DNA from: a virus
DNA length: 30,919 nucleotides
Virus record (IMG/VR): IMGVR_UViG_3300042691_017476
Span: 1-30,919 of that record
Direction: 5' to 3' (one strand)
The first letter of the stretch is position 1. The number at the start of each line of letters is the position of its first letter. This document shows, piece after piece, positions 2,719-30,596 of the stretch. A program made the position numbers and the translations under genes. Below the pieces are notes generated by a model. The model did not search any database. It saw nothing but the letters and a program-made list of their open reading frames with translations, and was not told the origin of the DNA.

Positions 2719-2814
2719 GCATAACAGAGGTTTGCCAAAATGCCGCAAGAAAGTTCCTGCTAAAATCCGAAGTTTCTGCTATGCGGCACTTCGGCAAGCC
2801 GCAAAACGTTACCC
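2719..2814 (-). repeat. attC-like imperfect inverted repeat between HTH gene and adenine methyltransferase
   Basis: Arms TTGCCAAAATGCCGCA (2732-2747) and TGCGGCACTTCGGCAA (2782-2797) match at 14 of 16 positions, the two mismatches being wobble pairs. The outer cores are GCATAAC (2719-2725) and GTTACCC (2808-2814). The span is 96 bp, the same as the 943-1038 element. On the minus strand the TAA stop of the HTH gene falls inside GGGTAAC, the outer core, repeating the stop-in-core arrangement seen at 1033. Confidence 0.5.
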
Positions 2815-3018
2815 TCTAACAACCTCTCTAATTTCATCAACAACAATATTTGTTAATTGCTTTTCATCAAACCCAAGCAATTTTCCAAAAGAAACAAATC
2901 TATCTACATCGATATTTTTTGATTTTTGATATTGTTTGATTTGCTGGTAGCTAACGTTTAAAATACGTGCTATTTCAGCTTTGTCTTTTCCTGATAATTC
3001 AAATAGTTTTTTATACAT
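2809..3018 (-). CDS. Small helix-turn-helix protein
   Basis: A 69-residue protein with the look of a minimal XRE-type DNA-binding domain: helices around KDKAEIARILNV (11-22), then SYQQIKQYQKSK (23-34) as the likely recognition part, then DRFVSFGKLLGF (39-50). The C-terminal 20 residues are acidic and have no known motif. It starts at the first ATG after the methyltransferase remnant (25 nt away) and its stop codon lies in the downstream attC-like core. It may regulate the methyltransferase region, but a target cannot be named from the sequence. Confidence 0.6.
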   Translation of the reverse strand: MYKKLFELSGKDKAEIARILNVSYQQIKQYQKSKNIDVDRFVSFGKLLGFDEKQLTNIVVDEIREVVRG

Positions 3019-3043: not shown

Positions 3044-3145
3044 CTATATTTTATAAGGCGGTGAAGTTATTACTGCATTTACTTTACCATCTAATCTTTT
3101 CATAGTTAGTAAGCAATCTTCGTTGTATATTTTATTTATTTCCAT
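3044..3145 (-). pseudogene. Truncated N-terminal remnant of a beta-class DNA methyltransferase
   Basis: The 33-residue reading frame starts MEINKIYNEDCLLTMKR and ends ITSPPYKI followed by a TAG stop. This is the standard beginning of a beta-class methyltransferase, with the catalytic motif IV as TSPPY (27-31), and the frame stops two residues later. Everything that would follow (target recognition and the SAM motif FxGxG) is absent, and the HTH gene begins 25 nt downstream. The fragment cannot be a working enzyme. It most likely remains from a third methyltransferase gene replaced by recombination with the cassette-like units to its left. An independent micro-protein is possible but less likely. 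Confidence 0.65.
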
Positions 3146-3253: not shown

Positions 3254-3278
3254 GTAATTTATAATTGTTCTAAATAAC
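3254..3278. repeat. Copy 4 of the 25-bp palindrome (divergent copy)
   Basis: GTAATTT, 11 nt (ATAATTGTTCT), AAATAAC. It has the same arm length, spacer length and TTCT-AAATAA core as the copies at 11297, 13997 and 20071, with one mismatch between its arms. It lies just upstream of the putative minus-strand promoter at 3216-3248, in the gap between the 80-residue gene and the methyltransferase remnant. Confidence 0.5.
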
Positions 3279-11019: not shown

Positions 11020-11220
11020 TTATTTTGAAAATATAAATCCAAATTCTTCTTGATAATCATTGTAACCAAACTCGCCATCTATTTCTTTTACTTCTCCGTT
11101 TGCTAATTCAATTTGTAAGTTGGCATAAAATGATTTGTCAGTTACATTTTTTATGTTGTTTACATCTACTGATACTACTAATTCGTTGTAAAGTTCTTTG
11201 TTTGTGATAATTGTTTTCAT
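11020..11220 (-). CDS. Small protein, 66 residues, first gene of the early operon
   Basis: Starts MKTIITNKELYNELVVSVDV at the ATG 11218-11220, chosen because the promoter at 11248-11276 lies just upstream; the longer frame from 11274 would place the start inside the promoter. It has alternating strands and an acidic second half (GEVKEIDGEFGYNDYQEEFG). No motif recognised. Confidence 0.65.
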   Translation of the reverse strand: MKTIITNKELYNELVVSVDVNNIKNVTDKSFYANLQIELANGEVKEIDGEFGYNDYQEEFGFIFSK

Positions 11221-11247
11221 AATTTTATATGTTTTAGTTTGATGATG

Positions 11248-11276
11248 TAAAGATAGTAATATTTTTATTAACACAA
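11248..11276 (-). promoter_or_regulatory. Early minus-strand promoter
   Basis: On the minus strand TTG (complement 11274-11276), 18 nt, TATCTTTA (complement 11248-11255), a near-consensus -7 box (last base A for G). The leader to the ATG is about 27 nt. It lies back to back with the plus-strand promoter at 11329-11336, so the two transcription programs diverge here. Confidence 0.6.
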
Positions 11277-11296: not shown

Positions 11297-11336
11297 GTTA
11301 TTTATATTTATTCTAAATAAGTTTTTTGTATATTTG
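11297..11336 (+). promoter_or_regulatory. Plus-strand promoter with palindrome copy 1
   Basis: GTTATTT, 11 nt (ATATTTATTCT), AAATAAG at 11297-11321 is copy 1 of the palindrome, followed at 11329-11336 by TATATTTG, an exact -7 box. No TTG sits at a proper -33 distance, so an activator bound to the palindrome may substitute for it. The transcription start would fall at about 11341-11343, on the ATG of the next gene. From AAATAAG to TATATTTGTG the sequence is nearly the same as at 14015-14036. Confidence 0.65.
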
Positions 11337-11341
11337 TGTAT

Positions 11342-11596
11342 ATGATAGTAGAGTTGCATAGATGGATTACTGAATTAATAGATGATGAAGATTCTATTTA
11401 TACTCCTATTGTTCCTGAAGGTTATTACGAAAGCGATAGAATAAGATTAGATAGAATTGATAAATACACCGTTAGTGAAGACAAAACAGAAATTATATTA
11501 ACTATTGGTGGTAACGAGTTTTTTTACGATTACTCAAAAGAAGGACACGAAAAAATAAAAAGATATTTCGATTTATTAGAAACAGAAATAAACTAA
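11342..11596 (+). CDS. Hypothetical protein, 84 residues, first gene of the packaging operon
   Basis: Starts MIVELHRWITELIDDEDSIY at the ATG 11342-11344; the GTG at 11336 would lie within the promoter. The protein is acidic, with predicted strands (KYTVSEDKTEIILTIGGNEF) and a C-terminal helix. Not recognised. The start codon falls where transcription should begin, so its message may be leaderless. A role in starting late expression is possible from position only. Confidence 0.7.
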   Translation: MIVELHRWITELIDDEDSIYTPIVPEGYYESDRIRLDRIDKYTVSEDKTEIILTIGGNEFFYDYSKEGHEKIKRYFDLLETEIN

Positions 11597-11629
11597 CTAT
11601 AAGGCAGTCGTAATTTAAAATGACTGTTT

Positions 11630-11656
11630 ACCTACTTTAAATTATTTAAGGTAGGT
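11630..11656 (+). terminator. Hairpin between the first gene and the terminase; attenuator or weak terminator
   Basis: ACCTACTTTAAAT (11630-11642), one base, ATTTAAGGTAGGT (11644-11656): 12 of 13 pairs. It is followed by TTAACTTGTTT, only a broken T-tract, so it may act as a partial terminator or processing site that sets terminase level. A smaller CAGTC/GACTG pairing precedes it. Confidence 0.5.
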
Positions 11657-11680
11657 TTAACTTGTTTAAATGAAATAATA

Positions 11681-12124
11681 ATGGCATACAGTCAAAAAGA
11701 AATAGACGATATATTTAACTATGTTTGTGGTGAAATTGAAAAAGGACGTGCTTTGCGTAATATTCTTAAAGATGATAATATGCCAAGTACTTCAACTTTT
11801 TATCAATGGTTAGATAATAACGAAGATAAAGCGAAACAATACGCGCGCGCGACAGAAATTAGAGCCGATATAATTTTCGATGACATTCTTAACATTGCAG
11901 ACGATAATGTAAACGATACCTATACTAACGATGACGGTGTAGAGCTAACAAACCACGATGTTATCCAAAGAGCTAGATTAAAAATTGATGCTCGTAAGTG
12001 GGTATTATCAAAATTAAACCCTAAGAAGTTTGGCGACAAAACCGACATAACGAGTGGGGGAGAAAAGATACAAAACACACCGACAACAATCCAAGTAGAA
12101 ATAACCAAACCTAATGAAGATTAA
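11681..12124 (+). CDS. terS: Terminase small subunit
   Basis: The DNA-recognition subunit of the packaging motor. The 147-residue protein has an N-terminal helix-turn-helix region (about 5-50: QKEIDDIFNYVCGEIEKGRA, then TSTFYQWLDNNEDKAKQYARA) of the Sf6-like small-terminase type. A helical oligomerisation part follows (RADIIFDDILNIADD and VIQRARLKIDARKWVLSKL), with the hallmark LNPKKFGDKT and a disordered C terminus. Length is typical. Its last 11 nt overlap the start of the large subunit gene. Confidence 0.9.
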   Translation: MAYSQKEIDDIFNYVCGEIEKGRALRNILKDDNMPSTSTFYQWLDNNEDKAKQYARATEIRADIIFDDILNIADDNVNDTYTNDDGVELTNHDVIQRARLKIDARKWVLSKLNPKKFGDKTDITSGGEKIQNTPTTIQVEITKPNED

Positions 12125-13313
12125 TGCAACGCCAGTATTTGAAAAAAACTGGAACGCACTACAAAGCGGTAAGTATAAATATATTATAAATTCGGGTTCG
12201 TCTCGTTCAAGTAAGACTTTTTCGATACTTCAAATATTTTGGATATTAGCTTGGACTAAACCACGCACTAAGCTATCTGTATTTCGTAATACTAAAAAGG
12301 ATTGTAAAGATACTATTTTGCAAGATATGCTTAAGTATTACCCAACACTTGATAATTACGATGCTATAAAATTCAACAAGACAGAAAGCATATTTACTCT
12401 TCCTAATGGTTCAACTATTAACATAGAAGGGACAGACGATGAATTAAAAGTACACGGTTATCATTCAGACTATCTTTGGTTTAATGAGTTTTATAAAATG
12501 CCAAAAGAAACATTCGACCAGTTAGATATGCGTTGTACTACGGCAGTATTTATGGATTATAATCCAGTTGGTAAACTTTGGAGCGATGATTTAATAAAAC
12601 AAGATAATGCTTTTTTAATTCACTCCACGTTTAGAGATAACCCGTTTTGTCCGTTAGAGCAAAAGAAAAAAATATTATCTTACGAGCCTACGCCTTACAA
12701 TATAGATCAGAAAACAGCTTCGGACTATCTTTGGACTGTTTATGGCTTAGGATTAAAAGCCGAAAAGCCTAATCGTATATTTAAGAATTGGGGAGTTATT
12801 GGTGATGCTGAATTTTATAATTTAAAATATCAAAGCTATTATGCAACAGATTTTGGGCTGTCTGCCCCAACTTCTGTTATAGAATTTAAATTTGATGGTG
12901 ATAAAACTTTCTTTTTCCACGAAAGACTTTATAAACCAATGAACGAAATGTCAGGTACTTTAAGTGATAAGTTTAATGAATTAGGACTTATTAAGAACAA
13001 AGAAAATATAGCAGACAGCGGAAACGAATTAAATAAGTCAGAAGGACAAAAGTTAAAAAATAGTGGTTATAATATAATATTTGCACAAAAAGGACACGGA
13101 AGTATAAACGCTGGAATTGAAACGCTACAAAAGTGTAATGTATATTATACAGCTTCTTCTATAAACTTAGAACAAGAATATGAGAATTATAGCTGGAAAG
13201 TTTGGCAAGGAATACAACTGGATGTTCCTGAAGACAATTGCAATGACCACGCCTTAGATTGTTGCAGAATGGGCGTAAGTTGGTATGTAAAAACTCGTTA
13301 TTTATCAATTTAA
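12114..13313 (+). CDS. terL: Terminase large subunit (PBSX/Terminase_3-like)
   Basis: The packaging ATPase and nuclease. In 399 residues it has Walker A SGSSRSSKT (27-35), Walker B YLWFNEF (120-126) with catalytic Glu, and a coupling motif MDYNP (147-151). The RNase H-like nuclease shows its metal ligands in ATDFG (about 243-248), ADSGN (about 300-304) and DHALDCCRMG (378-387). Length and motif order are complete, so this gene is not interrupted by an intron although a homing endonuclease gene follows 16 bp later. It should join the small subunit and the portal at the prohead vertex. Confidence 0.95.
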   Translation: MKINATPVFEKNWNALQSGKYKYIINSGSSRSSKTFSILQIFWILAWTKPRTKLSVFRNTKKDCKDTILQDMLKYYPTLDNYDAIKFNKTESIFTLPNGSTINIEGTDDELKVHGYHSDYLWFNEFYKMPKETFDQLDMRCTTAVFMDYNPVGKLWSDDLIKQDNAFLIHSTFRDNPFCPLEQKKKILSYEPTPYNIDQKTASDYLWTVYGLGLKAEKPNRIFKNWGVIGDAEFYNLKYQSYYATDFGLSAPTSVIEFKFDGDKTFFFHERLYKPMNEMSGTLSDKFNELGLIKNKENIADSGNELNKSEGQKLKNSGYNIIFAQKGHGSINAGIETLQKCNVYYTASSINLEQEYENYSWKVWQGIQLDVPEDNCNDHALDCCRMGVSWYVKTRYLSI

Positions 13314-13329
13314 TTTTGTATATTGCAAT

Positions 13330-13980
13330 ATGATAGGAATTTATAAAATAACAAACCCTAACGATAGGGTTTATATCGGTCAAAGCAATAACATTAAAAG
13401 AAGATTTAATAATTATTTTAACAATTTACCAAAAAAACAAACATTGTTGTTAAAAAGTTTTCTTAAACACGGTGTTGAAAACCATAAATTTGAGGTTATA
13501 GAAGAATGTAGCATTGAATTATTAAACGAGCGTGAAAGATATTGGCAAGACTTCTATAATGTATTGAATGGCGGATTGAATTGTAGACTTACTGAGACTA
13601 ACGATAAAAGCGGGTTTCTAAGCCAACAAACTAAAAATAAAATCAGTAATTCGCATAAAGGAAAAAAGAAAACAGCAGAACACGTATTTAAAATTGCATT
13701 AAAAAATAAAGGTAGAATACCGCATAACAAGGGGCAAAAAGCTTCTATTGAATTAAAAAATAAATTATCTTTAGCTCATATTGGAACTAAATTAAGTGAA
13801 GAAACAAAAAGAAAAATGTCTGATAAAAGTGCAAGTGCTAAAATAGTTTTAGATATAAACACTGGTGTTTTTTACAAATCAGCCAAAGAGGTAAGCGACC
13901 TTTACAATATAAAACACAACACTTTAATCTGTAAGTTGACTAGCAAAAATAAAAACAACACAGCATTTATTTATGTGTAA
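13330..13980 (+). CDS. Free-standing GIY-YIG homing endonuclease with NUMOD3/NUMOD1 DNA-binding motifs
   Basis: A selfish nuclease that cuts a specific site in relatives lacking it, spreading by repair. The GIY-YIG domain (1-90) shows GIYKI (3-7), VYIGQS (14-19), the catalytic Arg in NIKRRF (24 or 25) and the catalytic Glu in ERERYW (69). Residues about 98-170 carry NUMOD3-like repeats (SQQTKNKISNSHKGKK; SIELKNKLSLAHIG; SEETKRKMSDKS). Residues about 171-205 form a NUMOD1 helix-turn-helix with AKIVLDINTGVFYKS. It stands between terminase and portal genes, with no sign of a group I intron, and is followed by a fresh promoter for the portal transcript. Confidence 0.93.
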   Translation: MIGIYKITNPNDRVYIGQSNNIKRRFNNYFNNLPKKQTLLLKSFLKHGVENHKFEVIEECSIELLNERERYWQDFYNVLNGGLNCRLTETNDKSGFLSQQTKNKISNSHKGKKKTAEHVFKIALKNKGRIPHNKGQKASIELKNKLSLAHIGTKLSEETKRKMSDKSASAKIVLDINTGVFYKSAKEVSDLYNIKHNTLICKLTSKNKNNTAFIYV

Positions 13981-13996
13981 AATAAAAAAATATTTG

Positions 13997-14034
13997 CTTA
14001 TTTGTAATTATTCTAAATAAGTTTTATATATTTG
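13997..14034 (+). promoter_or_regulatory. Portal/capsid operon promoter with palindrome copy 2
   Basis: CTTATTT, 11 nt (GTAATTATTCT), AAATAAG at 13997-14021 is a perfect 7-bp-arm palindrome. TTG (14002-14004) and TATATTTG (14027-14034), 22 nt apart, form a consensus Bacteroidota promoter. The palindrome covers about -43 to -19 relative to the expected start near 14040. Confidence 0.75.
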
Positions 14035-14043
14035 TGAAATATT

Positions 14044-14107
14044 AGCATTGTAGAGGCAGGAGTATAAGCCTAATTAAATATTGCAGGAGTACCCGAATAT
14101 CAATGCT
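14044..14107 (+). ncRNA. Structured 5-prime leader of the portal transcript; candidate three-way-junction RNA
   Basis: AGCATTG (14044-14050) pairs with CAATGCT (14101-14107). Inside are two hairpins: AGGC/GCCT (14054-14057, 14068-14071) with loop AGGAGTATAA, and ATATT/AATAT (14078-14082, 14096-14100) with loop GCAGGAGTACCCG. Both loops expose AGGAGTA, and the 9-mer GCAGGAGTA is repeated at 14056 and 14083. The transcript should begin near 14040, so this structure would be its very 5-prime end, followed by CTTTTTG. Possible roles are a protein-binding leader, an antiterminator of the HK022 put type, an attenuator or a messenger stabiliser. Confidence 0.5.
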
Positions 14108-14142
14108 CTTTTTGTTAACGTCGTGAGACAGAGATATTTTTA

Positions 14143-15357
14143 ATGGAAGTAGTAAAATCAGTTTCCTTATTTGGGCGTGAACTGTTTAGAGTCGAGCGTA
14201 ATCGATTAGGACAGGTTATATACACCCTTTTAGATGGTGGTAATGACTTTGTAGATAACGAAAAGTATTTAAAATTGTCGTTAGATAATCCAGTCTTAAT
14301 GACAATCATTGCTTTGCGTAGCCGTTTGTATTCACAAATGGAGATTAAGCACGTTAATTCAAAGGGTATTGTAATTGAGAATAGTCCTTACATCAAACTT
14401 TTAAACAATCCTAACTACTTTCAATCAAAAGAGGATTTCTTTTTTCAGCAAATGTGGTTTTTATCGTCGTCGGGAACTGATTACATCTACCAAAAGAAAG
14501 CATTTGCAAACGAACTACCAAAAGCAATATACAACCTTATCCCTAGTGAAATTGACTTAAACAATGCTCATAAGATAAATAAGTTTATCGTTACTGAAAA
14601 GGATAAAAAAACATTTGGGGAGCGTAAAATCAAATACACTTTAGACAATACTACCTACGAGTTAATGTTATCCGATTTGATACCGTTATACGATTTATCA
14701 AACGGATTAACTAACAATTCATTTTTTCAATCGCCAAGCCGTGTAAAAGGAATTAGAACAGTGCTTAATAATATTGACCAAAATATTAAGGCTAAAAACA
14801 TTAACTTACAATTTAGTCAAAAGTACTTATCTAAAAACGAAAGTACTGGAAACGAGGCGCAAATAAGAGATAATGACAAGCTAGACATCGAGCGTAAATT
14901 AGATAATAAAAACCTAATTATTACTAATTCAGCTATGAGTGTTCAGCACTTAGTTAGCGACATGAAAAAACTGTTTTTAGACGACCAGTTTGCAGACGAT
15001 GCTAATAAGTGTTTATTAGCGTTTGAAATGAATAAGGACGTTTTAAACTTCTTTGCTAAAGATTCTACTTTTGAAAATCAATCGCAAGGAATTATAAGCT
15101 ACATTCAAAACTCAATCCACACAACAGCTAAAAACACAATGAACAGTTTAAGCCAACAATGGGGATTAATGGAACGAGGCGAAAAGTTAATCGCTTCTTA
15201 TGACCATTTGGCAGTAATGCAACCAGTAGTAAACGAAAAAATAAAATCATTTACAGAAATGCAGAACGCTATTAAGTTAGGGTTAGAGAATGGAACGCTT
15301 ACGCCAGTTGATGCTAAAAAAATGAGTGATGAATTTAAATTAAAGTTAGGGTTATGA
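14143..15357 (+). CDS. Portal protein (HK97 family)
   Basis: Forms the dodecameric ring through which DNA enters and leaves the head. The 404-residue protein has the usual start (SLFGRELFRVERN), an early helix-rich stretch LSLDNPVLMTIIALRSRLYS, the hydrophobic DFFFQQMWFLSSSGTDYIYQ segment with following strands (the wing), a middle IDLNNAHKINKF part and a long C-terminal helical region (crown) with GLENGTLTPVDAKKMSDEF. Length matches the family. It follows the structured leader by 36 nt. Its TGA stop overlaps the ATG of the 38-residue gene (ATGA). Confidence 0.88.
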   Translation: MEVVKSVSLFGRELFRVERNRLGQVIYTLLDGGNDFVDNEKYLKLSLDNPVLMTIIALRSRLYSQMEIKHVNSKGIVIENSPYIKLLNNPNYFQSKEDFFFQQMWFLSSSGTDYIYQKKAFANELPKAIYNLIPSEIDLNNAHKINKFIVTEKDKKTFGERKIKYTLDNTTYELMLSDLIPLYDLSNGLTNNSFFQSPSRVKGIRTVLNNIDQNIKAKNINLQFSQKYLSKNESTGNEAQIRDNDKLDIERKLDNKNLIITNSAMSVQHLVSDMKKLFLDDQFADDANKCLLAFEMNKDVLNFFAKDSTFENQSQGIISYIQNSIHTTAKNTMNSLSQQWGLMERGEKLIASYDHLAVMQPVVNEKIKSFTEMQNAIKLGLENGTLTPVDAKKMSDEFKLKLGL

Positions 15358-15470
15358 GTATTAAAGAAATTGATAGAATTTTATCGAACACGAATTTACC
15401 TAAAGAGATAAGAGATTCTTTGATAAAGAAAAGGGATTTATTGTTAAAAAATAAAGAAGTTAAAAAATGA
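15354..15470 (+). CDS. Small helical protein, 38 residues, between portal and protease
   Basis: MSIKEIDRILSNTNLPKEIR, then a basic helix ending KNKEVKK. It overlaps the portal stop and the protease start, both by ATGA, so it is translated in a coupled row and is likely real. Too short to assign; a small head-assembly helper is possible. Confidence 0.6.
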   Translation: MSIKEIDRILSNTNLPKEIRDSLIKKRDLLLKNKEVKK

Positions 15471-16327
15471 TATATTGTAAAGAATTAGACAAAAACTTTG
15501 AAACTAAAGAAGACTTATTTAAGGCTTTAGTAGATAATGAAGGATTAATCATTGATGCTAAAAAGTCAGAGATATATTTTTCTTATAAAAAAAGTTTGCA
15601 GTTAATGACTGACCAAAATAAAATAGAGAAAGCGTTTCAGTCTACTGAAAAAGCTATTAAGTTTGATAGCGATTACTATTATTTTGTTGTTAATTCAGCT
15701 AATTTCTTAGACAGTCATAAAGATGTTCATTTAGATGGCAACTGGAATAGAACAGTTAAAAATCAACAAGGTAAAAACTATCTTATTTGGCATCACGATT
15801 TTTCTAAAGCTGAAAATATTTTATTTTTTCCTGAGGATGTAGAAATGTTTACGGCTAAAATAGAATGGAATTTATTAGGTAAAGACTATGAAGGCAGTAC
15901 TTATTGTTTAGTTTATAAATGCCGTAAAGATAAAATACAAAATCAAACTATTAAAGGTTGGATTGATGCTAAAAGAAAACTACAACTATCTGTTAGGATG
16001 CAGTATGTTAAAGTTGAAATGGGATTTAAGTCTGACAATCCTGATTATGCAAAATACAATCAATATTACGAAAAGGTATATCCTTTAATAGTTAATAAAG
16101 ATGATTTTAAAGAAATAGATTATTTCTATGGTGTTGAAGAGGCTAAAAACGTAATGGAATCAAGTCTATTACCTTATGGTAGTAATTCAGCTACGGCAGA
16201 AATAAGCACTAAAGAGAATATTGAATCGCCGAAAGGCACTCAAGATAACGACTCGTCTAACGACACTCAAAAACAAGCCAATGAAAAGGCAACGGAATTA
16301 TTAAAAGAATTATTAAACAAATTTTAA
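15467..16327 (+). CDS. Prohead maturation protease, divergent
   Basis: Placed between portal and capsid genes, where the HK97-type serine protease that cleaves the capsid delta domain is found. The 286-residue sequence shows a beta-rich core with NSANFLDSHKDVHLDG (76-91), a candidate catalytic His in LIWHHDF (109 or 110) and a candidate Ser in LQLSVRMQYV (Ser175), in the order His then Ser of the U35 family. The region after 230 is polar, low in complexity and rich in Ser, Asn and Thr (SNSATAEISTKENIESP), followed by a helix, and may act as internal scaffold. Motifs are diverged, so the call depends largely on gene order. Confidence 0.7.
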   Translation: MIYCKELDKNFETKEDLFKALVDNEGLIIDAKKSEIYFSYKKSLQLMTDQNKIEKAFQSTEKAIKFDSDYYYFVVNSANFLDSHKDVHLDGNWNRTVKNQQGKNYLIWHHDFSKAENILFFPEDVEMFTAKIEWNLLGKDYEGSTYCLVYKCRKDKIQNQTIKGWIDAKRKLQLSVRMQYVKVEMGFKSDNPDYAKYNQYYEKVYPLIVNKDDFKEIDYFYGVEEAKNVMESSLLPYGSNSATAEISTKENIESPKGTQDNDSSNDTQKQANEKATELLKELLNKF

Positions 16328-16334
16328 GAAAACA

Positions 16335-17513
16335 ATGGAAGAAATTGTAAAAGAATTAGGCAACAAAATTGATGCCTTTAAAAATGAAACAGTTTCCAAA
16401 GCCGAATATGATACACTAAAGGCTGAATTGGAAACTCTAAAAGGCAAAGAAACAGTAGATAAAGCTACTTTCGATGCTTTACAAACAAAATTAGATGATT
16501 TAGCTTTGACTGTAAACGAAGAGAAGCAAACGTCTACAAAGCAACCTACTCTAGAAGAAGAGTTGAAAGAAAACAAAGACAAGTTAAAAGCCATTGTAAA
16601 TGGTCAAAAAGGAGAGTTTGAAATAAAAGCATTAACAAATAGAGCTTCGATTTCAGGAAATACTAATGCTTTTCTTTTGCCTGACATTGGTCAATTAGGT
16701 GTTAAAGCTAGAGCTTTATATGATGTTTTACCAAAAGTACAAATTTCAAATAGAGCAAACGACAACGGTATTATTAAATACTTTGACTGGGATGAAGACA
16801 CTACTGTAAGAGCGGCTTCGGTTGTTGCTGAAGGTGGAACATTTGACGAATCTACTGCCAAATTTATCGAAAGAACTATGCCTATCCGTAAAATTGGAGA
16901 TACTTTGCCAGTAACAGAAGAGTTTGGAGAAGATTCTGCTTTTGCGTCTGCTGAATTAGATAGATTCCTTGAAGTGAACGTTAATACAGTTATTGACAAC
17001 CAAATTATAAACGGTAACGGTACTGGGCAAAACCTTACAGGTCTTTTAACTTCTGCTCCCGATTATACTCCAGTAGCTTCTGGAATATCAGGCGCAAACA
17101 TTAAAGATTTAGTTCGTAAAATGCGTACTACAATCGTTAAAACAAGAGGTTCAAAATATAATCCTGATATTGTGGTTATGAACTCTGATACTTTTGATAG
17201 ATATTACTTAGCAAAAGATTTAGATAATAACTACCTATTTGACCCAGTTAACGGAACTATTGCTGGCCTTGCAGTTGTTGAGGACAATAATATGCCTGAC
17301 AATCAATTAGTAGTCGGAGATAGACGTTTTGCAACTATTTACGAAAAAACCGGTATTGTAATTTCAGAAGGATTGGTTAACGCTCAATATGTAGAAGATG
17401 CTAAAACAATCAAAGCACGTAAGAGATTATGTATGTTAATTAAAGTAGTAGATAGAACTGGATTCTTACACTGTACTAACGTAACTAACGCATTAACAAC
17501 TTTAGCATCTTAA
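16335..17513 (+). CDS. Major capsid protein (HK97 fold)
   Basis: The main shell protein. Residues 1 to about 100 are a charged coiled coil (KELGNKIDAFKNE, EYDTLKAELETLKGKE, FDALQTKLDDLALTV), the delta domain that works as a scaffold and is removed by the protease. The mature part (about 105-392) has the HK97 pattern: an N-arm, an E-loop (IIKYFDWDEDTTVRAASVVA), the long spine helix region (SAFASAELDRFLEVNVNTVIDNQIINGNGTG split between helix and the GNGTG turn) and the closing strands. The cleavage site must lie near residues 95-105 but cannot be fixed here. Confidence 0.92.
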   Translation: MEEIVKELGNKIDAFKNETVSKAEYDTLKAELETLKGKETVDKATFDALQTKLDDLALTVNEEKQTSTKQPTLEEELKENKDKLKAIVNGQKGEFEIKALTNRASISGNTNAFLLPDIGQLGVKARALYDVLPKVQISNRANDNGIIKYFDWDEDTTVRAASVVAEGGTFDESTAKFIERTMPIRKIGDTLPVTEEFGEDSAFASAELDRFLEVNVNTVIDNQIINGNGTGQNLTGLLTSAPDYTPVASGISGANIKDLVRKMRTTIVKTRGSKYNPDIVVMNSDTFDRYYLAKDLDNNYLFDPVNGTIAGLAVVEDNNMPDNQLVVGDRRFATIYEKTGIVISEGLVNAQYVEDAKTIKARKRLCMLIKVVDRTGFLHCTNVTNALTTLAS

Positions 17514-17517
17514 TATT

Positions 17518-17880
17518 ATGGCAAGAACATTAACAAGTATCGACCTTAACGGTGCAATTACCGTTAATTCCGACGTAATGAACGGTGCGAAAACTGTTCA
17601 AGTAGTATGTACACAAGTAAGTGGAACAAGTGATGGTACTATTGCATTGCAAGGTTCTATTGATGGTACAACTTTTCAAACTTTAAACTTTGCAGATGGT
17701 AGTTTAGGTACTGCAAGTCCAATCGCTTCACATACTGGAGCGGATAAAAATATGGTAACTATCGTAAATGGTTTAGTTGCTACTTGGGCAGTAAATACCG
17801 ACAATTATCCTTATACAAGATTAGTTTGTGTAGGTACAACTGGAGATAGAACTACTATCGCTGGTAAATGGGTTGTATAA
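17518..17880 (+). CDS. Candidate head decoration protein, 120 residues
   Basis: An all-beta protein, rich in Thr, Gly and Val, with repeated short strands (TVQVVCTQVSG, TIALQGSIDGTTFQTLNF, YPYTRLVCVGTT). It lies 4 bp after the capsid gene, the usual place for a capsid decoration or cement protein. No family motif is recognised. A small connector is the alternative. Confidence 0.55.
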   Translation: MARTLTSIDLNGAITVNSDVMNGAKTVQVVCTQVSGTSDGTIALQGSIDGTTFQTLNFADGSLGTASPIASHTGADKNMVTIVNGLVATWAVNTDNYPYTRLVCVGTTGDRTTIAGKWVV

Positions 17881-17898
17881 CAATAAAATAATTAAATA

Positions 17899-18537
17899 AT
17901 GCCACAAATAGTAACAGTTTCATATTTTCAAAGAGCAAACGAGTTAAACATTCCTTTGGGTGTATCACAAGCGGTAGCAAATCCTACCTTAGCAACGCCT
18001 AACAGTAGTAATGCTTTGACTAATTTATGCGTGAAAATAGAGAAATCAATACTATTGAACGCATTAGGGTTAACAACTTATAATACATTGCAATTAGCGT
18101 TGGCGGATATAAACAATCCGCTATACGCTTCTTATAAAAAGTTAGTTCAAGGCGATACCTACGATGGTAAAGTATGGGAAGGATTAAACAATGATTACAG
18201 TTTAATCGCATACCGTGTTTTTGAAGAGTACATCACACAAACTAACGAACATTTAACTGGTGTTGGAAACACACAAGGGAAGCCTGAAAAAGCAACTTTA
18301 ACAAGTCCAAAATACAAAATTGCAAATGCTAACTTAACATTTATCGAAAAGTATCAAGGTGGTTATTTAGATTATCCTATTGTTCATAACGATGGCGAAT
18401 TTATAGACTGGTTTGGTAATCAAGAGCAAATAGAAGTTAGTTTGTATCGGTATTTATTGGATAAAAAAGATGATTTTATAGGATTTGATATTGAAAAGTT
18501 TAAGACTTACGAAACTAAAAACTCTTTTGGAATATGA
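17899..18537 (+). CDS. Head-tail connector (gp6-like adaptor position)
   Basis: A 212-residue, mainly helical protein located where the adaptor ring between portal and tail is encoded in HK97-like phages. Visible: helices with LTNLCVKIEKSILLNALGL, YSLIAYRVFEEYITQTNEHL and a C-terminal segment EVSLYRYLLDKKDDF. Similar proteins are common in Bacteroidota phages and usually have no experimental function. Its stop overlaps the next start by ATGA. The role is inferred from position and fold-like features. Confidence 0.6.
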   Translation: MPQIVTVSYFQRANELNIPLGVSQAVANPTLATPNSSNALTNLCVKIEKSILLNALGLTTYNTLQLALADINNPLYASYKKLVQGDTYDGKVWEGLNNDYSLIAYRVFEEYITQTNEHLTGVGNTQGKPEKATLTSPKYKIANANLTFIEKYQGGYLDYPIVHNDGEFIDWFGNQEQIEVSLYRYLLDKKDDFIGFDIEKFKTYETKNSFGI

Positions 18538-19034
18538 TAGTTTTTGAAGACCAATTAGCTAGGATAATAGAAGTTTTACCAACTCCAATAATAAACGAAA
18601 TCGAAAAACCGATTTTTTTTAATTGGGGGACTGAAACAGTTTTAGCTAATTACTTAACACTTTCACAAGGTCAAAATTTTCCTTTGATATGGTTAGAAGA
18701 GGGCGAGGATAGAGTGGATGATAATGAACCAAGTGTAAGTAGAAATGCACGAATTATTATCTTATATCAAAGTCAATGCCCCAATGAGTTTAACCCTTAC
18801 CAACATCAATACGATTATAATATTGTTTTGCAACCAATAGCAGATAATTTAATAACGGCTTTAACACAAAGCGGAATAAGTAGAATAGATAGCAATTATA
18901 GAACAAGAAGGGTAAAAAACTACTCCATGACTCAAATAGATGAAAGCCTCGTTTACGTTTGTAATGCTATTGTTTTAAATATCGAAATTATCTTTAACGG
19001 GGCAGAATGTATAAACAAAATAAATTTTAATTAA
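18534..19034 (+). CDS. Tail terminator / head-tail joining protein, putative
   Basis: A 166-residue alpha/beta protein located between the connector and the tail tube genes, the place of tail terminator or neck proteins. It shows strands with ARIIILYQSQCPNEFN and a helix QPIADNLITALTQSGI, followed by YVCNAIVLNIEIIF. This alternation is in keeping with the tail-terminator fold, but there is no diagnostic motif. Confidence 0.5.
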   Translation: MIVFEDQLARIIEVLPTPIINEIEKPIFFNWGTETVLANYLTLSQGQNFPLIWLEEGEDRVDDNEPSVSRNARIIILYQSQCPNEFNPYQHQYDYNIVLQPIADNLITALTQSGISRIDSNYRTRRVKNYSMTQIDESLVYVCNAIVLNIEIIFNGAECINKINFN

Positions 19035-19052
19035 TAAAAAAAAGAAAAAAAT

Positions 19053-19985
19053 ATGGCAAACTTAGGTTATTCTTGTTCGGGAACACGTCGAAACATTGGT
19101 TTTGAAAGTTGTGTTGTCAATGCGGGAAACGAAAAAGGTCATGTATTAATTCCTAAAGGCACAACTATTGATTTAGATGCTACGCCTTTCACGTTGGAAT
19201 ATGTTACAGACCAAATACAACAAGGGAATTTTATTTGGATTTCAAACTGCTTTAGTCAAGTTTCAGAAACACCTGAAAGCACAACAGAAACAAGTCCAAC
19301 TGGTAAAATGTCCGTTGTTCAAAAAGGATTAGCAGTAACAACTGCAATACTTAAAAAGGGTTACGAGGTTCACTCCTCTTTGTACGGCTACTCATTAAAC
19401 GATGCTTGGGATGTTTTACAAATATTTGAGACAAACGTTATTAAAGCAGTAAGAGTAGGAAGCACTGGTAATGTTATCAAAGGATTTTCAGTAGGTATGT
19501 ACGATGTAGGTGGTTGGCAAGATACTAACGGAACAGTATCAGCACAAACTACTATTAAATACCAATTTGATGATGCTTTTGAAGTAAACGAACAAGGAGT
19601 ATTTTTAACAAATTTAGATTTCAACGCTAATACTGGTGTAAATAATATTGTTGATTTAGAAATGACAATCCGTAAAGCGGATATTTCAGACAATAAAGTA
19701 TATTTTTCAGCAGTTTGGGCAAGAAACAAACAAGTTAAAATCACTTCTTTGGCAAGTTCTAATGTAAGACTTTATGTAGATGGCGCAAACGTAGCAATAG
19801 ATACTTTAACGTATAACACGGCTAATTCAGAATATGAATTAACACCCGACACGGCATTAGCTTCAGCAGATGTAGTTAGAGTAACAACTTTTGATGCAAC
19901 GGCTTCTCCAGCGGTTGCAGTAGCAAAGGTAGCCAGCGGAAAACTTTATAAAGGAGATACTGGAACAGTTACGGCAGTAGCATAA
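19053..19985 (+). CDS. Major tail tube protein with C-terminal Ig-like domain
   Basis: A 310-residue protein that should build the tail tube. The N-terminal part (1 to about 220) is beta-rich, with GTTIDLDATPFTLEYVTDQI and KMSVVQKGLAVTTAILKKGY, as in tube proteins. Residues about 226-305 form a separate beta domain (VKITSLASSNVRLYVDGANV through KLYKGDTGTVTAVA) resembling Ig-like domains fused to tail tubes of lambda-like phages, which may bind cell-surface sugars. A strong terminator follows 20 bp later, so this gene closes the head operon. Confidence 0.7.
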   Translation: MANLGYSCSGTRRNIGFESCVVNAGNEKGHVLIPKGTTIDLDATPFTLEYVTDQIQQGNFIWISNCFSQVSETPESTTETSPTGKMSVVQKGLAVTTAILKKGYEVHSSLYGYSLNDAWDVLQIFETNVIKAVRVGSTGNVIKGFSVGMYDVGGWQDTNGTVSAQTTIKYQFDDAFEVNEQGVFLTNLDFNANTGVNNIVDLEMTIRKADISDNKVYFSAVWARNKQVKITSLASSNVRLYVDGANVAIDTLTYNTANSEYELTPDTALASADVVRVTTFDATASPAVAVAKVASGKLYKGDTGTVTAVA

Positions 19986-20004
19986 GAATTTTAATCTTTA
20001 AACT

Positions 20005-20039
20005 AAAAGACAGTTAATTAATTTTAGCTGTCTTTTTTT
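20005..20039 (+). terminator. Intrinsic terminator closing the head operon
   Basis: AAAAGACAG (20005-20013), a 14-nt loop, CTGTCTTTT (20028-20036) and more T: a perfect 9-bp stem with a T-tract, 20 bp after the tail tube stop codon. Confidence 0.85.
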
Positions 20040-20047
20040 ATTTTGTT

Positions 20048-20095
20048 TTGTAAAAGATGTTTTTTTATTGCTTATTTTTGTTTAGTCTAAATAAG
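20048..20095 (+). promoter_or_regulatory. Tail operon promoter with palindrome copy 3
   Basis: TTG (20048-20050), 22 nt, TATTTTTG (20073-20080) form a consensus promoter. The perfect palindrome CTTATTT, 11 nt (TTGTTTAGTCT), AAATAAG at 20071-20095 overlaps the -7 box and the expected start near 20086. This position would suit repression, unlike copies 1 and 2, where it lies upstream of the -7 box. The next ATG is at 20103. Confidence 0.65.
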
Positions 20096-20102
20096 AATAA
20101 CT

Positions 20103-20396
20103 ATGATAGAACTATTTAACATTCAACTAAATGGTATTGATGCTGAAAACTTTTGTAAAAAATCTAATGAGGAAAAGATAGCATACATTAAAAAGCATAC
20201 AAACCAACAAAACGACACTATTATTAACGATTTTCTATCAAGACCATTAACCAGTAAAGATTGCGGGTGCGGTTGTGGTGGGAACAAAAATGTTTCAAAT
20301 GGGAATCAGTCCAGCGGAATATCAAAGACGATTGAAGAGGGTGCAAAAAATAGCAACACTTCAAGAAATAGTAAGCGAAGAAATAATAAAGGATGA
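20103..20396 (+). CDS. Small tail-region protein, 97 residues, with Cys-Gly cluster
   Basis: Starts MIELFNIQLNGIDAENFCKK, has a helical N-terminal part and a sharp Cys-Gly cluster CGCGCGG (residues 54-60). The last about 35 residues are rich in Asn, Ser, Lys and Arg, lie wholly over the start of the next gene in another frame, and look like a by-product of that overlap or a disordered tail. It opens the tail operon. Cys-rich motifs like this may bind metal, but no family is recognised. Confidence 0.55.
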   Translation: MIELFNIQLNGIDAENFCKKSNEEKIAYIKKHTNQQNDTIINDFLSRPLTSKDCGCGCGGNKNVSNGNQSSGISKTIEEGAKNSNTSRNSKRRNNKG

Positions 20397-20754
20397 GCAA
20401 ACCGTAAAACTTCTTAAAGAACAAGATTTTATAGAAGGCGATATTTACGGAACTGGTGTTGACGTAGCTTATAGAAGTCCTAACTATTCAATACTTAAAG
20501 AGAGAATGAATCCTAAAGCTGGGGGAGCAGTCGATTTAATATTTACTGGTCAGTTTGTCGATGCTATGTATTTATTAAAGCCTAAAAATGGTAAATATAA
20601 GTTTGGCAATACGGATAGAAAGCGAAATATATTAAAAGAAATGTATGGCGAAAATATATTCGGATTGAATCAAAATGTATTTGAGAAGTACCAAAAAGAA
20701 ATAATAAGACCCCGATTTGTAAAAAGATTAAAAGAATATGCCAAAATACAATAG
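20290..20754 (+). CDS. Putative tail completion / minor tail protein
   Basis: About 154 residues from the ATG at 20290 (MFQMGISPAEYQRRLKRVQK); a GTG at 20275 in the same frame is a less likely start. The helix-rich N terminus is followed by GGAVDLIFTGQFVDAMYLLK, a pattern seen in gp10-like or virion-morphogenesis-like tail completion proteins, and a C-terminal basic helix RPRFVKRLKEYAK. It overlaps the preceding gene by 107 nt in a +1-shifted frame and the next gene by 17 nt. Confidence 0.6.
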   Translation: MFQMGISPAEYQRRLKRVQKIATLQEIVSEEIIKDEQTVKLLKEQDFIEGDIYGTGVDVAYRSPNYSILKERMNPKAGGAVDLIFTGQFVDAMYLLKPKNGKYKFGNTDRKRNILKEMYGENIFGLNQNVFEKYQKEIIRPRFVKRLKEYAKIQ

Positions 20755-30434: not shown

Positions 30435-30596
30435 ATGAAAGTAGTGGTAGACAAAAATACTGGTCAAGTTTTATATGGCACTTTAGTAGAAGTTGAACTT
30501 TTAGAAAATGAAGTGCTTATTGATGATTTGCCAAATAGTGAATTTACAAACCCTTATTATAATTTTAAAACACAAACTTTTTACGACAATATATGA
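30435..30596 (+). CDS. Small protein, 53 residues, after the fibre gene
   Basis: MKVVVDKNTGQVLYGTLVEV, then an acidic stretch LLENEVLIDDLP and a C terminus with NPYYNFKTQTFYDNI. Compact and acidic, in the place where fibre-assembly or tip proteins are often encoded. Its stop overlaps the following start by ATGA. No motif recognised. Confidence 0.6.
   Translation: MKVVVDKNTGQVLYGTLVEVELLENEVLIDDLPNSEFTNPYYNFKTQTFYDNI

Follow-up and report, generated by a model that had tools for sequence, protein, structure and literature searches.

The Shiga toxin 1 gene is a phage cargo gene under the control of host Fur. Likewise, the sitABCD operon, a cargo operon found on lambda-like coliphages, is controlled by host Fur (PMC6969025). 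Both cases resemble the locus described here in that a phage promoter carries a box for what is, here probably, host Fur; however, they concern accessory prophage genes, whereas here the box stands at structural and early operons in many phages of a phylum. Dual regulators of early and late genes, as far as known, are phage proteins; p4 and p6, which operate the phi29 early/late switch, are an example (PMC3100819). The likeness to the switch proposed here lies in a divergent early/late hub where one complex activates one class of genes and represses the other, but phi29 relies on its own proteins, whereas the reader here is probably a host protein. Class I activation by CRP proceeds from upstream sites located whole helical turns from the promoter, a spacing that recurs among the upstream boxes of the phages studied here; unlike in the CRP systems, the box is Fur-like and we infer the activation. 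Bacterial Fur boxes at the promoters of TonB-dependent and heme uptake genes contain the same 23-bp box, and promoters of the portal type share their spacing to the -7 box; in contrast to bacterial Fur-repressed promoters, the phage boxes would control core phage genes, mostly from phased upstream positions.

The literature searched, mostly open-access and without preprints, contained no precedent for the motif, for a Bacteroidetes Fur consensus or for Fur-controlled core phage operons beyond cargo genes, and nothing on a host metal sensor controlling such operons. Control of a phage promoter by a host regulator is a known kind of arrangement; for a phylum-wide early/late position code no precedent was found. 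To our knowledge, little has been established about the timing of genes in Bacteroidota phages.

A palindrome at four intergenic sites of the window

The window, that is, the whole stretch of 30,919 nucleotides analysed, is an IMG/VR virus fragment and comes from a relative of the Muminvirus phages of Flavobacterium, which are virulent (PMC7077304). Four palindrome copies are present where an earlier note on this DNA had placed them, all between genes. The form CTTATTT-N11-AAATAAG given in that note is exact at 13997 and 20071; the copy at 11297 has G in place of the first C, and that at 3254 carries three mismatches. The features of the four sites are as follows (palindromes without strand; bit scores from a matrix trained on bacterial sites alone):

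13997-14021 (core 13998-14020): Fur-box-like palindrome of the portal promoter; exact match, 30.6 bits, conserved before the portal gene in relatives
14027-14034, plus strand: -7 box TATATTTG of the portal promoter, 6 nt past the 13998 core
14143-15357, plus strand: gene of the portal protein, transcribed from this promoter; annotated Muminvirus portal proteins are homologues
11297-11321 (core 11298-11320): Fur-box-like palindrome of a divergent early/late hub; exact core match, 31.3 bits
11329-11336, plus strand: -7 box TATATTTG of the rightward hub promoter, 8 nt past the 11298 core, before gene 11336-11596
11248-11255, minus strand: imperfect -7 box TATCTTTA of the leftward early hub promoter, 42 nt from the 11298 box (phased 42-44 class)
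11020-11219, minus strand: first leftward (early-side) hub gene, starting at an internal ATG of ORF 11020-11274
20071-20095 (core 20072-20094): Fur-box-like palindrome before ORF 20103; exact match, 25.4 bits
20073-20080: -7 box TATTTTTG, overlapping the 20072 core, before tail genes
20005-20036, plus strand: intrinsic-terminator-like hairpin closing the upstream operon, directly before the 20072 box
20103-20754, plus strand: ORF 20103-20396 (unknown) and ORF 20275-20754 (PHROG tail protein) behind the 20072 box
3254-3278 (core 3255-3277): diverged Fur-box-like palindrome, 24.0 bits; a perfect copy is syntenic at 30584 in the related contig G020
3216-3223, minus strand: -7 box TATATTTG serving the leftward operon; distance to the 3255 core, 31 nt
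2809-3018, minus strand: small HTH-like gene of the leftward operon, target of the 3255 site, with sub-threshold HTH matches only

The arrangement of -7 boxes described earlier, following the 13998 and 11298 cores, overlapping the 20072 core and lying on the minus strand near 3255, was borne out; the minus-strand -7-like box TATCTTTA opposite the 11298 site is an addition to it. With d as the number of nucleotides that separate the end of the 23-bp box from the next TAnnTTTG on the gene side, the portal box (d=6) belongs to a proximal class, a late, repressor-type position. The 11298 box looks both ways, with d=8 rightward, towards a gene that precedes the terminase genes, and d=42 leftward, and the 3255 box occupies a phased upstream position (d=31) towards the leftward operon of HTH and methyltransferase genes. 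Both promoter modes, proximal (portal and rightward hub) and phased (leftward hub), thus occur within the window. The 20072 copy departs from AATNATT in its core, and no counterpart was seen at the corresponding place of G020.

The pattern TTATTT-N8-TCTAAATAA has three exact matches in the 30.9-kb window and none when reversed; in 300 first-order Markov sequences of equal composition, 0.010 were expected on average, with a maximum of 1. A looser form of the palindrome allowing three mismatches is only mildly enriched (22 observed, 13.8 expected), as might be the case for chance palindromes of A+T-rich intergenic DNA. Such an origin is nevertheless so improbable as to be negligible, given the count of the exact form, the near-zero reversed-pattern controls and the conservation of the palindrome at the portal promoter; the exact-form and control counts refute it. 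The matrix separates the four copies clearly from the next unrelated window match (11.9 bits) and from the best third-ranked score among the 300 Markov sequences (14.1 bits). The palindrome is a genuine element of the window. The earlier note had raised the prospect that the motif would be equally frequent in shuffled sequence or inside genes; the Markov counts speak against the former, and 114 of 124 phage sites proved to be intergenic.

An RNA-level reading was rejected: the window has no Rfam match, and its portal leader folds no better than shuffled sequences. Several further features were noted nearby. A short GNRA-loop hairpin (14117-14142) stands directly before the portal start and also occurs in the portal leaders of relatives, and its stem appears to covary (GTC/GAC, GCT/AGC, GCC/GGC, GAC/GTC and GTT/AAC around GTGA). 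A GIY-YIG/NUMOD3 homing endonuclease (13330-13980) lies as an insertion between the gene for the large terminase subunit and the portal promoter. The minus strand at 3044-3145 holds a truncated DNA methyltransferase start (MEINKIYNEDCLLTMKRLDGKVNAVITSPPYKI*), where G020 has the full gene. ORF 20103-20396 encodes a CGCGCGG stretch, possibly metal-binding, and a family search with it gave no match.

Spread among phages and in bacterial iron genes

The scan of related genomes proposed in the earlier note showed the portal box to be conserved in several IMG/VR relatives, where it is kept directly before the portal promoter (CTTATTTGTAATTATTCTAAATAAGTTTTATATATTTG in L050, which also has the box at the hub before gene 11336, and close variants in L005, L006, L009, L028 and L029). 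It is absent from the portal promoters of L010-L015, where other sequences take its place; there, a different dyad-like sequence of the TTTACATACAATGTAA type occupies the position of the Fur-like box, perhaps as another operator. A set of 31 records yielded dozens of pattern matches and zero with the reversed pattern, and IMG/VR holds at least 119 stretches with TTATTTNTANNNATTCTAAATAA versus 7 for its reverse. G020 alone has ten sites of at least 15 bits, including the syntenic counterpart of the 3254 copy and one before an orthologue of the small HTH gene 2809-3018.

In phages of differing portal families, the box precedes genes for portal, head-maturation protease and major tail proteins. 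Sites of at least 15 bits also occur in the isolated phages Cellulophaga phi19:1 and phi10:1, Olleya Harreka_1 and Muminvirus filifjonk9-1, the last with four such sites, two of them inside genes; none was found in phage 11b, phi18:1 or Tenacibaculum JQ. A portal-protein search for prophage relatives in bacterial genomes found none.

Two observations on the relatives stand apart. In L011 (9215-9323), a strong terminator-like hairpin (z=-6.0), entered by a tiny ORF, lies between the portal promoter and the portal start; a hairpin before the portal gene is also present in L008, L010, L012-L016 and L019-L022 and could be an attenuator or a small RNA. G020 (L052-L055), a 63.7-kb contig, contains paired near-copies of box-bearing early promoters (27263/46490, 30584/44031 and 23626/53028), representing either an early region present in duplicate or an assembly that joins two phages.

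When 118 sampled Bacteroidota genomes were scanned with the phage pattern, roughly 150 matches were obtained versus roughly 25 with the reversed pattern, and nearly all host sites were intergenic (40 regions read). TonB-dependent receptors for siderophores or heme account for 18 of the 52 proteins flanking the host boxes, and other neighbours are HmuY, imelysin, PepSY_TM, DUF6607 and one Fur gene. The box neighbours in Bacteroidota chromosomes are an iron regulon. Contrary to the earlier remark that no known system with this motif came to mind, the palindrome matches the iron-regulon box of the hosts.

Host sites were gathered with a phage-derived pattern and carry independent weight only at eight free positions, at which, for example, 50 of 51 have A at position 9; there, the phage copies are for the most part in line with them. 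Position 7 is T in half of the host sites and A in most phage sites. The window copies score within the range of host sites (24-31 bits) on a matrix built from Bacteroidota chromosomal sites generally, which may not be those of this phage's host. The phage consensus, TTATTTA[TG]AATNATT[AC]TAAATAA, is a 23-bp inverted repeat with an AATNATT core, and such a core is typical of Fur-family boxes. Both this core and the iron-uptake genes that stand behind the box in bacteria fit a Fur box.

The box is present at 2 of 30 fur loci versus 0 of 30 recA loci; with only two loci, fur autoregulation was dropped as a general line of support. Motif-blind analysis of HmuY loci did not recover the box, and an unsupervised 9-mer and dyad search of HmuY/DUF6607 loci, which were too short and too diverse, gave a weak signal. 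In three HmuY/DUF6607 loci of other Bacteroidota, a dyad AGGTTAGA-N4-TCTAACCT with a common TTAGA/TCTAA core was observed, perhaps the iron box of another lineage.

Distance between box and -7 box

At host promoters, d peaks at 3-6 nt, and a second group consists of boxes that follow the -7 box and lie at the start codon. At phage promoters, d falls into discrete classes, one proximal (4-8) and the others upstream (22, 31-33, 42-44 and 52-55), approximately one helical turn apart. The distance windows were fixed first and then applied to new scans, in which families were merged by protein and promoter sequence. In hold-out set A, 29 of 30 upstream distances fell inside the distance windows (30% expected), with R=0.89 at 10.5 bp, and in hold-out set B 13 of 17 did so; randomly shifted sites placed 8-14 of 34-42 inside. 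When all sets were pooled into 160 gene families, with protein as the sole criterion for merging, the distance windows captured 112 of 124 upstream distances (R=0.79). Boxes of the upstream class have their strong half-site directed away from the promoter by 43 to 8.

The two classes also differ in the genes behind them. Proximal boxes precede genes for portal, protease, major tail, head-tail adaptor and major head proteins and a few homing endonucleases, and upstream boxes those for exonuclease, helicase, HNH and mostly small unknown proteins; the median protein length is 181 aa for the proximal versus 81.5 aa for the upstream class (for 200 aa or more, p=2e-5). As in the iron-uptake promoters of hosts, proximal boxes cover the -33 region.

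Helical phasing marks regulators that contact RNA polymerase from upstream, and the phasing of site and promoter found here is that of a class I-type activator site. Host promoters with a phased layout are also present: the box lies at d=44, 44 and 54 at three NqrA promoters (L595, L607 and L608) and at d=33 before an Fe-S protein gene, four promoters of two gene types in all. Therefore, the same host factor may activate from these positions, and the NqrA boxes suggest that Fur directly activates an iron-using enzyme in Bacteroidota.

The reader of the box and a proposed early/late switch

No Fur-family protein was found in 15 phage records, and no regulator cluster is common to 18 motif-bearing phage genomes, although HTH proteins that are short and divergent may escape BLAST and several of the contigs are incomplete. 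Because of these two results, the reader is most simply taken to be a host factor, most likely Fur, and both a phage-encoded Fur homologue and a regulator common to the phages were rejected. The small HTH proteins of the window, which the earlier note had put forward, gain no support from this comparison.

A dual regulator encoded by the phage, such as the HTH protein 2809-3018, might still resemble or mimic the host specificity. In the window, G020, L004 and L187, small HTH-like genes are preceded by boxes, as autoregulation would predict, and the difference at position 7 between phage and host sites also speaks for such a regulator. We regard this as unlikely, since the identical box occurs in unrelated phages and at host iron genes and no cluster is shared by the motif-bearing phages; a CI/Cro-type operator is recognised by a cognate regulator encoded in the phages that carry the sites, and none was seen, though a short divergent HTH protein could escape.

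Another host regulator with a similar box (PerR, Zur, a DtxR-type iron regulator or a CRP/FNR-type activator) appears about equally unlikely. The PerR box is TTATAATNATTATAA, which the consensus also resembles, and helical phasing is typical of CRP/FNR activators; however, the host targets are iron-uptake genes, and only one Fur-family protein per genome (E<=1e-10) is present in 25 of 30 genomes with the box.

We favour, with a probability of about 0.6, the reading that the palindrome would be an operator of a host regulator, most likely Fur, which the phage uses in two ways, keeping early genes on and late genes off. We infer Fur as the binder, the dependence on iron and both regulatory signs. 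With the box 4-8 nt ahead of the -7 box or over it, as at the portal operon, bound Fur would block RNA polymerase; at 22, 32, 43 or 53 nt upstream on the same face of the helix, as at the leftward early genes, it would help RNA polymerase. Early in infection, iron-loaded Fur would in this way keep early genes on and head and tail genes off. As a mere conjecture, the late genes might be freed once Fur is lost, either because iron runs short or because it is diluted among the many phage genomes made by replication. The earlier proposal of one regulator with sites at promoters is supported, as is a timing of structural and early genes in which some are probably activated and others repressed.

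The copies directly before a -7 box are likely repressing because they are laid out as at host TonB-receptor promoters; those that lie upstream in phase and face minus-strand early genes appear to activate. Alternatively, proximal sites at 4-8 nt might activate by replacing the -33 element and thereby turn the late genes on, as T4 MotA acts near -30 in place of that element; the site centre lies near -29, and some of these promoters lack a -33 TTTG. We consider this improbable, though the least so of the alternatives, given that the layout at host TonB-receptor promoters is identical and that iron-uptake genes are classical Fur-repressed genes. Very improbable, in our view, is that the boxes are decoys that soak up Fur on replicated DNA and derepress host iron uptake, with phage control being secondary: several strong boxes per phage genome would suit it, but a decoy would require no helical phasing and no division into early and structural genes.

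Beyond Fur as the reader of these sites, it is conceivable, at somewhat below even odds, that a large proportion of Bacteroidota phages have outsourced their early/late switch to the iron sensor of the host, so that virion production would be gated by the iron status of the cell. Bacteroidota are dominant in guts and waters. A host-read operator with a position code common to unrelated phages would provide a rule for predicting early and late promoters from sequence, and the boxes at Na+-NQR are a hint that Bacteroidota Fur can activate iron-using genes. If the proposal is true, phage production would be tied to the supply of iron, a limiting nutrient in many such habitats.
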